Source of the DNA: Thalassovita mediterranea
Lineage (GTDB): Bacteria; Pseudomonadota; Alphaproteobacteria; Caulobacterales; Hyphomonadaceae
Assembly: GCA_019448215.1 (NCBI GenBank)
Contig: CP080408.1
Coordinates: forward strand, 1,922,001-1,986,000
Direction: 5' to 3'
DNA length: 64,000 nucleotides
This document shows, one piece after another, positions 18,535 to 25,731 of the stretch. Within the stretch, counting starts at the first letter, position 1. Every line of letters begins with the position of its first letter. The position numbers and the translations under genes are program-made. The notes beneath the pieces were generated by a model. That model did no database searches and was not told where the DNA came from. It was given only the letters and a program-made list of their open reading frames with translations.

Positions 18535-19296
18535 TTGATCCTCCGCCGTCTCTCCACCGCGATCCGCAAGCAGGACTGGCTCGCTGTCATCATCGAGTTC
18601 GCGATCGTTGTGGCGGGCGTGCTGTTTGCGTTCCAGATCAACGAGGCGGCCTCAAGGCAGTCCGAGCGCGCCTATGCGCGCGACACGATGGTCCGGCTGG
18701 AGCGTGAACTCAGCGAGATTGAGCGCGTGCGCGCGTACACGGAAACCTTCACTGAGCAGAGAGCAGACGGTGTTGCGATGGCACGCCCGGCCATCATGGG
18801 CGTGAGCAGCGTGTCAAGCCTGACGCCGGAGCAATGCTTTGCGCTATCGAGGTCCCATATAATTGACCGTCCAGCCGATGGCGTTCCGACGCTGGAAGAG
18901 GTCACACAGTCAGGTATCCTCGCCTCAATCAACAATGACGAGTTGCGGCTCGCGATCATGCGGTTTGCTTCAAAACGCGATGCCGTGCGTGAATGGGTGC
19001 ACCAGAAGTCGCCAGAGCTCGACGACCTTGCCGAGCTTTATCCCGAGATGATCTGGTATGAGCTGGTACCATCGCCTGAGGATGATGACGACTGGGACCG
19101 GAAGGCGGTGTGTGATCTTGCCGCCATGCGCGCGTCCCGGGGTTTTCAGGCCCATATGATGGGCAACTATTCCATCCTTCGGGACACAAAAAGCTTTGTG
19201 TTCGACTTCATGGATGATGCTTTCGTCGAACTGCACGGCGCCATCGATGCAGAACTCGGCATTGCCCATGATGAAGGGACGCCGGAGACGCCATGA
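18535..19296 (+). CDS. DUF6090-like membrane protein, paralog 1
   Basis: A 253-residue protein starting at a TTG, chosen because MILRRLS then aligns with the first residues of the four other paralogs in this cassette. A short basic cytoplasmic end (RRLSTAIRKQDW) precedes one membrane segment (about 17-35, AVIIEFAIVVAGVLFAFQI). The rest should be periplasmic. Exactly two Cys occur, 101 and 193. The motif LEEVTQSGILASINNDELRL (120-139) corresponds to the conserved ELxSxGxIxxI block. The similarity to DUF6090 is from memory. Function unknown. Its stop overlaps the next start (ATGA). Confidence 0.75.
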   Translation: MILRRLSTAIRKQDWLAVIIEFAIVVAGVLFAFQINEAASRQSERAYARDTMVRLERELSEIERVRAYTETFTEQRADGVAMARPAIMGVSSVSSLTPEQCFALSRSHIIDRPADGVPTLEEVTQSGILASINNDELRLAIMRFASKRDAVREWVHQKSPELDDLAELYPEMIWYELVPSPEDDDDWDRKAVCDLAAMRASRGFQAHMMGNYSILRDTKSFVFDFMDDAFVELHGAIDAELGIAHDEGTPETP

Positions 19297-20096
19297 TCCT
19301 GCGCCGTGTCATTCGTCATGTGCGCAATCAGGAGTGGACAGCCATCGCGATCGACTTTGTGATCGTCGTGGTCGGCGTGTTTCTCGGCATCCAGCTCGGC
19401 GACTGGAATGAGGCGCGTGATACCCGGCAGCGGGCTGCGGTTTTCAGCGAGCGCCTGGCCGATGACCTTCGCTACGAGGCCTGGGCGTATGAATATCTGC
19501 TGGAATACAACAAGGATGTCCGGGCGAGCGCCAAGGCCGCGCTCGATTCGCTTTACGGGACCGCGCCGCTTTCCGATGAGCAGTTCCTGATCAACGCCTA
19601 TCGAGCCACGCAGTACAAGTATAATGACCGGGGCCGGGCGACCTATGACGAGCTGATTTCGACCGGTGAGATCGGCCTGATCGGAGACGAGACGCTGCGG
19701 ACGACGGCGATCAACCTGTTCACGACGGATTTACTGGATGTCATCGCGCAGGAGGGACGCGAAGCGCCCTTGCGGACCATTTTCCGGCGCAAGGTCCCCG
19801 CCGATGTGCAGGCAGCCCTTCTGCGCGAATGCGGCGACCGGTTTGTCCCGGTTGGGGATTATGAAGCCATCCGGTCGTCGCTCGCCTATCCGTGTGAGCT
19901 TGGCCTGACGGGCGAGGCAATCGCGAGTGCAGCGCAGCTTCTGAAAGCGGATGACACGCTCATTGAAGCCTTGCAGGTCCGCTTTGCCGATGTCGAGACG
20001 GCGATTACGGACCTCGAACAGGTGAATGCCGTGATGGTGGAGAACCTGCGCGACATTGCTGGCGGGGTGTCTTTTCGTGGTGAGCCAAATCAGTAG
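19293..20096 (+). CDS. DUF6090-like membrane protein, paralog 2
   Basis: A 267-residue protein. N-terminus MILRRVIRHVRNQEW, then membrane segment AIAIDFVIVVVGVFLGIQLG and the boundary DWNEAR. Exactly two Cys, 180 and 201, both after the shared motif TYDELISTGEIGLIGDETLR (118-137), so their layout differs from paralogs 1 and 4. Its start overlaps the previous stop by four bases. Likely anchored in the inner membrane with a periplasmic domain. Function unknown. Confidence 0.75.
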   Translation: MILRRVIRHVRNQEWTAIAIDFVIVVVGVFLGIQLGDWNEARDTRQRAAVFSERLADDLRYEAWAYEYLLEYNKDVRASAKAALDSLYGTAPLSDEQFLINAYRATQYKYNDRGRATYDELISTGEIGLIGDETLRTTAINLFTTDLLDVIAQEGREAPLRTIFRRKVPADVQAALLRECGDRFVPVGDYEAIRSSLAYPCELGLTGEAIASAAQLLKADDTLIEALQVRFADVETAITDLEQVNAVMVENLRDIAGGVSFRGEPNQ

Positions 20097-20163
20097 CTGA
20101 CAGCTCGATCGAGAGGGTTATGGTCTGGCACCCGCAGCCGCTGCCAAACAAGGAGCCAGCATC

Positions 20164-21582
20164 ATGTCATTCAGGATTTCCCTTCTTGCCGCATCCGCCG
20201 TACTGGCCGCCGCCCCATTTGCCGCCGCGCAGGAGCGGACCGCCTTCGAGCAGCAGGCGCGTGAGATCTATCGCAATGTGGTCGAGGTGCGCTCGGCGCG
20301 CGGGCATGAGAATGTGCCGGAGATTGTCGACTATCTGGTGGGGGAGCTGAAGGCTGCTGGCTTCACAGATGATGACATCGAAATCAGCGACTACGACAAT
20401 GATGGCGAGGCGACGCAGGGCCTTGTTGTCTGGTACCGCTCACCCGATCCGCAGGACAAGCCGATCGCGCTTCTGGCGCACATGGATGTCGTCGATGCGC
20501 TGGCAGAAGACTGGGTGCGCGACCCTTACACGCTGACCGAGGAAGAGGGCTATTTCTTCGGGCGCGGGACGGCCGACAACAAGTATGGCGTCACCAGCCT
20601 CGTCGCGACCTTTATCCGCCTCAAGGAAGAGGGCTTTGAACCGACGCGTGACCTCGTCATGGTGCTGTCCGGCGATGAGGAAACCGGCATGGTTTCGACG
20701 CGGGCGCAGGCCAATTGGGTGGCTGAAGAGGTCGACCCGGCCTACGTGCTGAACGCCGATGCGGGCGGGCTGTCGCTTGGCCCGAATGGCGAGCCGCTCG
20801 ACTATGGCATCCAGGGCGCAGAGAAGACCTATGCAACCTTCGAGCTGACCGTCACCAATCCGGGCGGACACTCTTCAGCGCCGCGCGCCGACAATGCGAT
20901 TTATGAACTCGCCGATGCGCTCAAGAAGATCGAGGCGCACAAATTCCCGGTCCGCTATAATGATCTGACGCTGGCCTCGATTGAGGCAGCGGGCCGCAAG
21001 CGGCTGGACCGGCTTGGCAATGCGCAGCGCGCCTTTGCCGCCGACCCGACCGACGAGGACGCAATCGAAATCCTTCGCGCCAACCCAGCGACCGTCGGCC
21101 AGATCGGCACGACCTGTATCGCCACCATGCTGCGCGCCGGTCATGCCGAGAATGCACTGCCGCAATCAGCGACCGCGACCGTCAATTGCCGCATCTTCCC
21201 GGGTGTCGGCATTGAGGCGACCGAAGCCACGCTGAAAGACGTGGTCGGCAATGAGGACGTGCAGTTCAAGCTGATCTCTGACCTCGTCGAGAGCCCTGAG
21301 TCCGGCATGCGCGAGGACGTGCTGGCAGCGGTCCAGACGGCGCTGGAGGCGCGCGGCGTCACCGATGTGGAGATCATTCCGCACATGTCGGCAGGCGGCA
21401 CGGACGGCATGCACTACCGCAATCTTGGCTATGACACCTATGGCGTCGGCGGGGCGGCTGCCAAGCAGAACGACACGTTCGCGCACGGCCTCAATGAGCG
21501 TCTTCTCGTCTCCAGCTTCTATGACGGTCTCGACCACTTCTACGTGATCCTGAAAGAGCTTGCCGGGCCGCAGGAAGGCTGA
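20164..21582 (+). CDS. Secreted M20 family metallopeptidase
   Basis: A 472-residue precursor with a Sec signal (LLAASAVLAAAPFAAAQE, cut near residue 22). M20 hallmarks are LLAHMDVVDA (metal-binding His/Asp), GRGTADNKYG (bridging Asp), SGDEETGM (catalytic and metal-binding Glu), the dimerisation-domain His in NPGGHSSAPR, and a late NDTFAHGLNERL (metal-binding His). The family removes residues from peptides or dipeptides using two zinc ions, here probably in the periplasm. It sits inside the DUF6090-like cassette with its own ribosome site (AAGGAG). Confidence 0.9.
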   Translation: MSFRISLLAASAVLAAAPFAAAQERTAFEQQAREIYRNVVEVRSARGHENVPEIVDYLVGELKAAGFTDDDIEISDYDNDGEATQGLVVWYRSPDPQDKPIALLAHMDVVDALAEDWVRDPYTLTEEEGYFFGRGTADNKYGVTSLVATFIRLKEEGFEPTRDLVMVLSGDEETGMVSTRAQANWVAEEVDPAYVLNADAGGLSLGPNGEPLDYGIQGAEKTYATFELTVTNPGGHSSAPRADNAIYELADALKKIEAHKFPVRYNDLTLASIEAAGRKRLDRLGNAQRAFAADPTDEDAIEILRANPATVGQIGTTCIATMLRAGHAENALPQSATATVNCRIFPGVGIEATEATLKDVVGNEDVQFKLISDLVESPESGMREDVLAAVQTALEARGVTDVEIIPHMSAGGTDGMHYRNLGYDTYGVGGAAAKQNDTFAHGLNERLLVSSFYDGLDHFYVILKELAGPQEG

Positions 21583-21655
21583 TCCCGGCCGGCCGCCGCG
21601 CCAGTAGCTTTTTTGGCCTGTCCCGCTAAGGTTCATCCTTGGGGGGACAGGTGCC

Positions 21656-22453
21656 ATGATTTTGCGGCGGCTTTCGCGCTATGTTGCCGAGCAGAACTGG
21701 ATTGCAGTCGCGATCGAGTTCGTTCTCGTCGTGCTCGGTATCTATCTTGGCTTGTGGCTCGGCAATCTGAATGAAGACCAGCAGGACCGTGAGCTTTACG
21801 GCGAAGCCTTCGGCCGCGTGATTGTTGAGCTGGAAAACAATCTGGCGGGGATCGAGGCCGAACAGGAGACGATCCGCGAACATCTGCCTGTTGTGCAACT
21901 GGCGCTGGGCGACTTGCGGGCCTGCCGCACGGGCCTGGCGGCGGAAGCGAATGTGCAGGCTGCCCTCGCACCAATTGAGTGGGATATCGAGTTCATCCTC
22001 GATACGCATGCGCTAGATCAGCTGATCGCGAATGAGGCGTTCCTGCCTTACCAGGATGCCGACACGCGTGAGACCCTCATGTCGCTGATCAGCTACATCG
22101 ATCAGTTGCAGCGTTATTCAATCGAGATGAATGACAAGCTGCAGAGCGACCCGCTCAGCACGCTGCACATCGCAGCGCCCGGTGAGCTTAGCTATGCAAG
22201 CCCTGATGAGCTTATCGCTGCGCTGGAAAGCGGCGACGTCGCTGGCTCATCGATCTGGCGCGAGACAGAGCTGATCGTGCCATTGGAGGAAGCCTGCCAG
22301 GACGAAGCCTTCCTGATGGAATTCTACGCCTGGGAAGTGTCCGCCTACTGGCACGCAGCAGCGGCCCACAGCCTTGCAGAGACGATCCGCGACGGGCTGG
22401 CAACGCTTCGAGATGAGAGGACTGGCGCAGAAGACGAAGTGGCCGCGCAATGA
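21656..22453 (+). CDS. DUF6090-like membrane protein, paralog 3
   Basis: A 265-residue protein. N-terminus MILRRLSRYVAEQNW, membrane segment AVAIEFVLVVLGIYLGLWLG, then NLNEDQ. Exactly two Cys, 90 and 214. The shared motif is present in divergent form (ALDQLIANEAFLPYQDADTR, 119-138). The start follows GGGGGGACAGGTGCC. It is the first of three overlapping paralogs after the peptidase gene. Function unknown. Confidence 0.75.
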   Translation: MILRRLSRYVAEQNWIAVAIEFVLVVLGIYLGLWLGNLNEDQQDRELYGEAFGRVIVELENNLAGIEAEQETIREHLPVVQLALGDLRACRTGLAAEANVQAALAPIEWDIEFILDTHALDQLIANEAFLPYQDADTRETLMSLISYIDQLQRYSIEMNDKLQSDPLSTLHIAAPGELSYASPDELIAALESGDVAGSSIWRETELIVPLEEACQDEAFLMEFYAWEVSAYWHAAAAHSLAETIRDGLATLRDERTGAEDEVAAQ

Positions 22454-23277
22454 TCCTGCAGCGCCTCTCCCAATCCATTCGCAAGCAGGACTGGTTCACG
22501 GTTTTTGTTGAAACCATGATCGTCGTGCTGGGCGTGTTCATCGGTCTGCAGGTCAATAACTGGAACGCCGAACGCCAGCGCCAGGCCAGTGAGCGCGACT
22601 ATCTGGAGAGGCTGCACCGCGATGTCGTGGAGCTTACAGAGCGGCGCGCGAGTTATGCTGAAGGCCGGCCGGTCATTCTGCGGGCGCTGGAGCTTCTGAC
22701 GGAGTTCGTCAATGGAGAGCGCGAAGACCTCAGTGCTGCAAAAGAGTATGTCCGCGGCGCTGTGCCCGCCCAAAGGGACACTTCGGATGCAGAGCTCGAA
22801 TCACGCTTTTGCGGCCTTATGGACGGATCATCCTATCTCACGCCTCCCCCGTCGGAGCTGCCCACGGCGACTGAACTTGTCTCGGCCGGTCGCATCGACA
22901 TGATCACGTCAGACAAGGTGAAGCTCGCGCTTCTTTCCTATCTGCAGCAGATCGAGAGATCACAGGAATTCATTGCGGTAAGCCAATTAGGCGTTATCGA
23001 GCTTTCCACTGCTTTCCCGGACCTCTTTCGCATTCGCTATGTCATGGGCGTCGACTATTCTCAGGGCGCCGAAAGCCACCCGGTTTACGCCTGCGACTAT
23101 AAGGCAATGGCGCAGAATAACGCTTTCCTGAACGCCCTCAACCGGAACCGGGCCCAATATCATGGTTATGTCGGGCGCGCCGTTCAGCCTGCAAGCGATA
23201 GGCTGGCGGAGCTGCATGCCGCAATTGATGAAGCGGTCGGTGTTACACACGAGGGCAATGCGGAGACGGCGGAATGA
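22450..23277 (+). CDS. DUF6090-like membrane protein, paralog 4
   Basis: A 275-residue protein. N-terminus MILQRLSQSIRKQDW, membrane segment TVFVETMIVVLGVFIGLQV, then NNWNAER, the clearest match to the family's QINNWNE boundary. Exactly two Cys, 121 and 215, with spacing almost equal to paralog 1 (94 against 92 residues). Shared motif TATELVSAGRIDMITSDKVK (139-158). Start and stop both overlap neighbours by four bases. Confidence 0.75.
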   Translation: MILQRLSQSIRKQDWFTVFVETMIVVLGVFIGLQVNNWNAERQRQASERDYLERLHRDVVELTERRASYAEGRPVILRALELLTEFVNGEREDLSAAKEYVRGAVPAQRDTSDAELESRFCGLMDGSSYLTPPPSELPTATELVSAGRIDMITSDKVKLALLSYLQQIERSQEFIAVSQLGVIELSTAFPDLFRIRYVMGVDYSQGAESHPVYACDYKAMAQNNAFLNALNRNRAQYHGYVGRAVQPASDRLAELHAAIDEAVGVTHEGNAETAE

Positions 23278-23996
23278 TCCTCCAGCGCCTCGCCATCTCC
23301 ATTCGGAAGCAGGACTGGTTCACGGTGGTGATCGAGACGCTGATTGTGGTGTTCGGTGTCTATCTCGGTATCCAGCTTGGCAACTGGAATGCCGCCCGCA
23401 GCGAGCAGGCCGAAGGCGAGCGGCTGGTGCGGCAACTTTATGAGGAGCTGACGACATCGCTGGAGACCGGGCAGGTCTGTATCAACCGGGCTGAGGACTA
23501 TTTCGAGCGCACCCGCGACACGTATGAGAGGTTACGTCTGGGGCAGCCCGGAGACGGCGGCGAGGCGGGGTTCCGTGAAGAGTTTCTTTTGATCGGTCCG
23601 TGGAGCGACCTTTGCGTGATCCGGTCAGCGCTGGACGAGTTGCAGGCAGGGCAGATCGCGCTGGTGGAGGATGAGGCTCTTAAGCAGCGCATCCTGCAGT
23701 TCGTTGATGTTATGGACGGCTATGAGACCAGCATCGAGAATCTCGGTGCCTCCTATATGGCTGCCCTGCAGGTCATCTTTGTCGAGGTCGACTTTTCCTG
23801 GAATACGGGCAGCCGTGAACTGACGACACCTTTTGACGAGTTGGCCGGCAATGTCGTGTTCATGCGCAATCTGGAATCGGCGGCGTTTATGCTGGCGCAG
23901 ATCCAGCGCTATCACGGCCTGTTCGATGACGAGCTCCGCCGCATGCACGAGGAGCTCGCCGTCTATCTGGGCGAAGAGGTTGAGGCGGCGCCTTGA
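23274..23996 (+). CDS. DUF6090-like membrane protein, paralog 5
   Basis: A 240-residue protein, the shortest paralog. N-terminus MILQRLAISIRKQDW, membrane segment TVVIETLIVVFGVYLGIQLG, then NWNAAR. Exactly two Cys, 69 and 114, both before the shared motif ALDELQAGQIALVEDEALKQ (119-138). The first 15 codons are nearly those of paralog 4, suggesting a recent duplication of that end. It is the last gene of the cassette; a convergent S41 protease gene follows. Confidence 0.75.
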   Translation: MILQRLAISIRKQDWFTVVIETLIVVFGVYLGIQLGNWNAARSEQAEGERLVRQLYEELTTSLETGQVCINRAEDYFERTRDTYERLRLGQPGDGGEAGFREEFLLIGPWSDLCVIRSALDELQAGQIALVEDEALKQRILQFVDVMDGYETSIENLGASYMAALQVIFVEVDFSWNTGSRELTTPFDELAGNVVFMRNLESAAFMLAQIQRYHGLFDDELRRMHEELAVYLGEEVEAAP

Positions 23997-24027: not shown

Positions 24028-25731
24028 CTAGTTGCTGCGGCCGCGATACTCACCCGGCATGGAGAGGTCACGATTGACGTCCATGACGTCTGGTTTTGGC
24101 AGGGTAATGGCCAGGCCGTCCTGCTGGGATGTTTCCGACGACCGGAAGGCCTGAGGTTCAGAGGCAACGCCAGAACTTGTCGGAGCGGGGCAGGAGCCGC
24201 TCGCCCGGTACTGGAGCGCGGCAGCGATGAGCGGGTCACCCGTTGTGCCGAGCGGAGCGACCAGCTGGTCGGCCACCTGGCAGCCTGGTGTGCGAACGCC
24301 GAACTGGAAGTTGGCATTCTGCGGCACGAAGCCGTCTGCATATTCCCCAAATCCCTTTTCATTCACGCCCTGGAACTGGATCGTGTAATAGGTGCGCCCG
24401 CAATTGTCGGTCGGATAGAAACCGAAAGGCTTGCCGCAGGTGATGTCACCGACAATCACCACTTCCACATCAATACCGCGCAGGCCGTTGATCACGGCCT
24501 CGCTGGCGCTGCAGGTCCGCTCGGTCGAGAGGATGTAGACCCGGTTGAGATTCAGTGACGGCAGGCTCTGCCCACCCTGCACAGAGAAACCCTGACCGGT
24601 CGAAAGGAATGGGATGGGGTCGTTCACACGTCCGGTCACCGGATTGACGTTTCCGGCCCGGTCATTGAAGCGCAGCTGTTCGAAAGTACGGTTCGCCGTG
24701 CGTGACTGACCGGCAATCATGTAGGAGAGCTGGCTCGCCACAGCGAGCAGGCCGCCGCCATTATAGCGAAGGTCGAGGATGAGGTCGTCGACGCCTGCAT
24801 CGCTCATGTCCTGGATCGCATTGACGATCTGCTGTTCAGACGAGAAGGGGCTGAATGTCGTGAAGTGGATATAGCCGACCGTACCGCTGGACGTGTTGAA
24901 GACGCTGGTCGTGTTCACCGGCTGCCGGGTGACACTGCCTGCAGACACCGTCACGGTGCGCTCGGTGCCGTCGGGATCGCGCAGGCGGAATTCATGCGAT
25001 TCGCCAGCATTCGTCGGGAAGAGGCCTTCGTTCAGCGTATTGACCGCCGCCTGTGAGTTGGCGTTGATGAAATCCACGCCATCAATGGCCAGGATGCGAG
25101 AGCCGCGTTCGAAATTCGGCTGGCCGTTGACCGTCTGGGCAGCTGGCGAGCCGGGCTCTGTATAGGTCACGCGGAAGTCGCGCGGCGGCGAGGTGGAAAT
25201 GGCGCGGAAATTGACGCCATAGCCGGGCTGCGGCGCAGAATTTCGGGCAGCGAGATAGTCCTCGGTCGGCTCACTGAAGTGGAAATCATCCTTTGGCGTG
25301 CCTGAGGGCAGGCGCTCATCGGTCTTCAGCAGGCCGAAATAGGTCAGCCGGTCATTGTAATCATACGGGTTGAGATCCGGCACTTCATTGCGCCAGAGAT
25401 AGGTCTCGTCCGTCCAGGAGCGCAGCCAGAACAGCTCCTCGACCAGCAGGCCCTGCTCATCAGGAAATGGATCACCCTCAATATCAACGCCTGACCGCGG
25501 ATTGGCGCACTGGTCCTTGAACTGGCTGGCGGCTGGATAGACGCCGGGCTGATAGGCCGGCCCGGAAGGTGGGGGCGGCGGAGGCGGTGGTGGAGGAGGT
25601 GGTGGCGGGCTTGGCGCAGCTACGTTTCCGCCGCCACCGCCGCCGCCTCCACCACCGCAGGCAGACACCAGGCCAAGTGCGGCCGAAGCGAGCAGGATTT
25701 TAAGAAGACGGCTGGAAGAAGCTGGGCGCAT
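24028..25731 (-). CDS. S41 family C-terminal-processing-type protease, lipoprotein
   Basis: A 567-residue precursor. Lipoprotein signal with lipobox VSAC (Cys25), followed at once by ten Gly (26-35) and a run of fourteen Pro (42-55), a flexible stalk. A PDZ-like region lies near 170-260 (RILAIDGVDF). The peptidase domain has DLRYNGGG, nucleophile Ser in TCSASEAV and Lys in ITCGKPFG, the Ser-Lys dyad of tail-specific proteases. Several Cys near the end may form disulfides. It is probably membrane-anchored in the periplasm or on the surface. Confidence 0.88.
   Translation of the reverse strand: MRPASSSRLLKILLASAALGLVSACGGGGGGGGGGNVAAPSPPPPPPPPPPPPPPSGPAYQPGVYPAASQFKDQCANPRSGVDIEGDPFPDEQGLLVEELFWLRSWTDETYLWRNEVPDLNPYDYNDRLTYFGLLKTDERLPSGTPKDDFHFSEPTEDYLAARNSAPQPGYGVNFRAISTSPPRDFRVTYTEPGSPAAQTVNGQPNFERGSRILAIDGVDFINANSQAAVNTLNEGLFPTNAGESHEFRLRDPDGTERTVTVSAGSVTRQPVNTTSVFNTSSGTVGYIHFTTFSPFSSEQQIVNAIQDMSDAGVDDLILDLRYNGGGLLAVASQLSYMIAGQSRTANRTFEQLRFNDRAGNVNPVTGRVNDPIPFLSTGQGFSVQGGQSLPSLNLNRVYILSTERTCSASEAVINGLRGIDVEVVIVGDITCGKPFGFYPTDNCGRTYYTIQFQGVNEKGFGEYADGFVPQNANFQFGVRTPGCQVADQLVAPLGTTGDPLIAAALQYRASGSCPAPTSSGVASEPQAFRSSETSQQDGLAITLPKPDVMDVNRDLSMPGEYRGRSN

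Follow-up and report, generated by a model that had tools for sequence, protein, structure and literature searches.

Thalassovita mediterranea carries five paralogous genes of a single-pass membrane protein family, here called family A, in which a conserved anchor of about 45 residues is joined to a diverged, all-helical C-terminal head. Computational comparison with related loci shows that arrays of such genes gain, lose, swap and laterally acquire members, some of them by recombination near the boundary between anchor and head. The five genes lie in a stretch of 64,000 nucleotides (contig CP080408.1), referred to below as the window, and the five genes, like the two others described with them, are on its forward strand.

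The family A genes share the start MIL(R/Q)R and occupy positions 18535–23996, as an earlier sequence-only reading had it: copy 1 (18535–19296, 253 aa, TTG start), copy 2 (19293–20096, 267 aa), copy 3 (21656–22453, 265 aa), copy 4 (22450–23277, 275 aa) and copy 5 (23274–23996, 240 aa). Their heads belong to subtypes A08, A02, A03, A11 and A06, respectively, a head subtype being defined by at least 45% identity. The ATGA overlaps coupling copies 1–2, 3–4 and 4–5 were confirmed. The genes are not consecutive, as had been claimed: a complete gene for an M20 peptidase with a signal-peptide-like start (20164–21582; NF006596/PRK09133) interrupts the array between copies 2 and 3 and serves as a syntenic marker of the site. 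Also missing from that reading was the gene ending 7 nt upstream of copy 1, P0007 (18039–18527, 162 aa), which encodes a single-pass protein predicted to be N-out/C-in and represents a second family, family B, found beside arrays. Since the seven genes are co-directional and separated by short gaps, it is plausible that they form one transcription unit. The promoter scan gave no signal above chance level, the terminator scan only slightly exceeded chance, and the search for structured RNA returned none. The plasmid, phage and viral-contig collections searched gave no family A match and the window contains no tRNA; carriage on a mobile element was therefore rejected.

Copy 2 is the sole window copy to pass the cut-off of the Pfam DUF6090 model (PF19578), with 29 bits against a threshold of 23.5. 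Copy 4 falls below it at 12.8 bits, and copies 1, 3 and 5, each searched alone, receive no score. The label "DUF6090-like" thus holds directly for copy 2, whereas the other four are joined to it through the family profile, a single model that aligns over the length of all five copies, which therefore do not belong to separate unrelated families. In the wider family, DUF6090 matches (E ≤ 0.01) were found in 61 of 143 members. Family A and PF19578 have in common the N-terminal transmembrane (TM) segment, the NWN-type motif and the block in the helical head; they differ in that copies 1, 3 and 5 lie below detection by the DUF6090 model alone. Two of the motifs proposed as common to the copies need qualification: of NWN, copies 1 and 3 keep only remnants (NEAA and NLN), and the ELxSxGxIxxI block is conserved family-wide and degenerate in copy 3. 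Our literature search did not find DUF6090 named in any paper, and a search for gene fusions hinting at the function of family A gave none.

Conservation is concentrated in the anchor. This module, exemplified by codons 1–45 of copy 2 (19293–19427), is predicted to comprise a basic cytoplasmic helix, a single TM helix and the NWN-type motif. Nine residues are invariant in the five copies (M1, I2, L3, R5, Q13, W15, V25, V26 and G28), and the anchor also features D/E21 within the TM helix, the pair G28xxxG32 and Q34. Mean column information is 2.4–3.1 bits over residues 1–45 and mostly about 0.5–1.3 bits beyond, the best-conserved part of the head being the ELxSxG block (residues 117–142 of copy 2). 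Pairwise, the window anchors have 17–31 of 45 residues in common, whereas the heads are mostly undetectable to each other by BLAST, the exception being copies 1 and 4 (22% identity, E 2e-12). The diverged heads are functional and under purifying selection: orthologous heads give dN/dS of 0.11–0.19, which indicates weaker constraint than on the M20 gene (0.04–0.06), and the family A members listed have intact frames without internal stops.

The cysteines of the head bear on its location. Beyond residue 45, cysteines are even in number in 222 of 228 non-redundant homologues (none in 72, two in 132, four in 18), whereas a Poisson law predicts an even share of 52% and control ORFs give 53%. Members with two cysteines mostly use one of three pairs of alignment columns—99–208 (25 members), 180–201 (24) and 90–218 (20)—and such pairs are gained and lost as units across the alignment. 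Each window copy has exactly two (Cys101/193, 180/201, 90/214, 121/215 and 69/114 in copies 1–5), giving about four arrangements among the five. Paired cysteines point to disulphides and hence to a periplasmic head, so almost certainly the family A head lies in the periplasm and contains disulphide bonds. The basic N-terminus (net charge +2.3, about 14 residues cytoplasmic) agrees with an N-in orientation. An AlphaFold2 model of copy 2, built from 143 sequences, is all-helical (pLDDT 94.3, pTM 0.85), with a long first helix (residues 15–88) that includes the TM segment. Searches of PDB and BFVD gave nothing for this fold at E ≤ 0.001. Sequence matches to syntaxins (E 0.016) look like coiled-coil noise and were discarded. 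Whatever the function, the pairing of cysteines settles the topology of the family, and the map of the arrays indicates the members to prioritise.

Searching with a profile of the five copies, we found family A in 51 of the 105 genomes of the host's taxonomic family, at 1 to about 19 copies per genome, and in 13 of 399 genomes across the phylum; the DUF6090 model matches in 50 of 200 genomes of the host's order. A few singletons occur outside the class, in Glaciecola and in metagenome-assembled genomes of Gemmatimonadales and Rhodothermales, the latter placements possibly including contamination. Tandem arrays and singletons both occur. Among named loci, same-strand arrays of up to 12 genes are found in Henriciella, Hyphomonas, Robiginitomaculum, Parvularcula and Erythrobacter, and singletons are found in many genomes. 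Because relatives carry such arrays as well as singletons, five copies in a row are ordinary for the clade; they had been thought unusual, and arrays of 5–19 copies are in fact common among relatives.

Single copies with unrelated neighbours, which would speak against the earlier view of the cassette, occur for several subtypes (A09, A19, A36 and the host's own sixth copy). The latter is solitary (C1:2381503) and adjoins a short-chain dehydrogenase-like gene and, by resemblance, a nitronate monooxygenase-type gene. In several Henriciella loci (L077, L078, L079, L089 and L092), and at C1:2381503 in the host, subtype A09 occurs as one copy with comparable surroundings, which suggests a core function for this subtype. 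Subtype A19 is likewise a stable single gene in a fixed setting in Hellea, and together these stable singletons suggest an ordinary cell function for A09 and A19.

The window is chromosomal and its host Henriciella-like, the nearest named relatives being L051 and L052. At the corresponding site, the sister Henriciella locus L051 has about 11 family A copies: copies 2, 3 and 5 have orthologues there, as does the M20 gene, but about eight further members are others. Head subtypes recur across genera in altered order. The M20 marker is present in 15 of the 29 genomes of the genus; by hand tally among the matches listed, about ten of these have family A genes next to it and three lack the family. 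Lateral exchange is indicated by heads that are closer than their surroundings: 94% identical between L051 and L068 against 68% for M20, and 93% between L054 and L062 against 77%, with M20 as a baseline of one gene that may itself have moved. Between the window and L052, genes of the same array differ in dS (0.10, 0.26 and 0.82; 0.42 for M20). Chimeric genes (L067/L080 and L057/L068) combine heads of 89–91% identity with unlike anchors, the jump lying near codon 40, where the membrane helix ends.

Several relatives' arrays contain exact anchor repeats of 40–81 nt, a range of lengths cited as sufficient for recombination (PMC9484751). The window anchors have at most 20 identical nucleotides in a row, so no recent homogenisation is visible there. 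Four-fold sites of anchors agree at 0.55 within arrays; codon usage would predict 0.34, and anchors compared between loci reach 0.44. This moderate synonymous excess is compatible with homogenisation, but may in part reflect DNA-level constraint near gene starts. Silent donor cassettes in the style of antigenic variation were rejected, because the copies listed are intact and have their own starts.

Family B recurs in or beside the arrays: besides P0007, the sole copy in the host genome, members are found in L055, L058, L059, L060, L062 and L080. The family has a TM segment of the type LIYLAIQVRQ and no Pfam family. By manual tally, roughly 46 of the 58 strong matches are no more than about 4 kb away from one of the family A genes listed. 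This is far above expectation for a target of ~10 kb in a 3.5-Mb genome, with an upward bias for the subtypes concerned, since the profile was built from array-adjacent genes. Family B cysteines show no pairing (none in 34 members, one in 10, four in 1), and in P0007-like subtypes the N-terminus is acidic or neutral and the TM segment is followed by positive residues; the body of family B is therefore probably cytoplasmic. Its predicted structure is of moderate quality (pLDDT 84) and has no PDB match. The member in L065 runs on into a cupin-like stretch. Homology between families A and B was rejected, with an HHalign probability of just 0.7%.

Other neighbours are less consistent. Among the top 25 Pfam families of the flanks sampled, large arrays are bordered mostly by housekeeping genes, with no recurrent toxin, secretion or defence gene. 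The type VI secretion (T6SS) marker VipA is absent from all 105 genomes of the host's taxonomic family, which rejects immunity to an own T6SS. Secreted or periplasmic peptidases (M20, S41, M2 and S9-type) often adjoin arrays, as at 20164–21582 and 24028–25731 in the window; elsewhere they include M2 enzymes (L059, L063 and L070) and genes that are prolyl oligopeptidase-like by eye (L066, L082 and L088). This adjacency may merely reflect peptidase-rich genomes. Robiginitomaculum arrays have a recurring multi-pass membrane gene, Pr6Pr/FAR-17a-like by eye (L067 9285–10004, L081 9360–10004 and L095 1292–1930). Genes for SnoaL/NTF2-like exported proteins, DUF4440-type by eye, lie inside arrays of two genera (L059 12807–13307 and L067 4973–5524).

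We tentatively favour, at somewhat below even confidence, an explanation of the array by analogy: it may constitute a mosaic, strain-variable protective or binding repertoire of inner-membrane-anchored periplasmic proteins, immunity-like in character. The anchor would place every head in a common membrane context, given either by a shared partner or by self-association through the D/E21–GxxxG face, and each head would bind an external agent of its own in the periplasmic space, candidates being a toxin, a bacteriocin, a phage component or another ligand. The protective repertoire would then work like tandem tsaI and esaG of Staphylococcus aureus. The sequence-only idea that copies alike in the anchor and diverged in the head might each have a separate partner agrees with the differences in head sequence and disulphide position and with the independent reuse of subtypes across genera. 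Counting against a repertoire are the stable singletons A09 and A19, selection on heads that is purifying rather than diversifying, the lack of T6SS in the 105 genomes, and flanks devoid of a recurrent toxin or defence gene. It is conceivable, if rather doubtful, that the arrays represent an undescribed alphaproteobacterial system, a reshuffling receptor or immunity array in which the anchor is a recombination handle for in-frame heads and which acts with family B. A serious rival to the repertoire, though on balance unlikely, holds that the proteins are envelope sensors or adaptors: each head would sense a different periplasmic ligand or stress, and the conserved TM segment and cytoplasmic helix would relay this to one membrane partner common to all. 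The strongly conserved anchor with its intramembrane acid and GxxxG, the co-location of family B with its body predicted on the cytoplasmic side, and the existence of stable singletons all suit sensors, but only about 14 residues are cytoplasmic, no linked signalling gene was seen, and fast turnover with lateral exchange is unusual for house sensors.

The remaining explanations are less probable still. Heads could stop phage genome entry at the periplasmic face, in the manner of superinfection exclusion, and a periplasmic repertoire that is strain-variable and laterally exchanged would suit such a role. We consider it improbable: PADLOC gave no consistent defence model (scattered matches from one or two members, with E 9e-4 at best) and PHROG no consistent family, searches of phage, plasmid and viral collections did not recover family A, and the flanks show no enrichment of defence genes. 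The sequence-only reading had suggested that the five proteins assemble into one complex, for which translational coupling and a conserved TM helix with a packing motif can be adduced. Copy numbers from 1 to about 19, subtypes standing alone or in shifting combinations, sister strains that have just some members in common, and the one-by-one replacement of members make a fixed five-part hetero-oligomer unlikely; members vary independently rather than as a co-inherited set of subunits, and we give the idea very little credence. We likewise disfavour, as highly improbable, the neutral accumulation of recombination-prone copies with no diversified role. Repeated anchors and overlapping genes would ease unequal crossing-over, but the members listed lack stops, dN/dS is 0.11–0.19, paired cysteines are retained in 222 of 228 homologues, and individual heads spread laterally.

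If the repertoire interpretation is true, its closest working parallels are known arrays of variable paralogues. T6SS orphan immunity islands, a literature lead, are likewise variable, laterally acquired sets without cognate toxins; the 105 genomes of the host's taxonomic family lack T6SS, however, and array members nearly all belong to one protein family. The lpl genes of S. aureus are membrane-anchored tandem paralogues whose copy number shifts through recombination in a conserved segment (as summarised in PMC9484751), but their products are lipid-anchored, the conserved block is central and the family is another. The arrays also resemble tsaI (DUF443) and esaG of S. aureus and streptococcal tipC, strings of tandem paralogues that are not identical to one another, vary in copy number and contain conserved blocks of homology. 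Family A arrays are also tandem, non-identical and strain-variable in copy number, and paralogue recombination at conserved blocks is seen in relatives, as chimeras at codon ~40 and exact repeats. Recombination has been shown for esaG and tipC, whereas tsaI, with one 5' block spanning the first two TM helices, shows little; its authors put forward the possibility that the conserved region recognises a receptor common to all copies and the remainder the toxin (PMC9484751). TsaI has five predicted TM helices and family A one, and we claim no sequence relation. The tsaI, esaG and tipC arrays accompany a known toxin, whereas none is linked to family A; since no cognate toxin was found in the flanks sampled, we claim a working resemblance and not membership in an immunity family. 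Their hosts are Firmicutes, while family A heads would reside in a Gram-negative periplasm. If correct, the repertoire interpretation would provide a testable function for a DUF abundant in marine alphaproteobacteria, and would extend to the Gram-negative periplasm the recombining arrays of tandem paralogues that are best described so far among immunity genes of Gram-positives.
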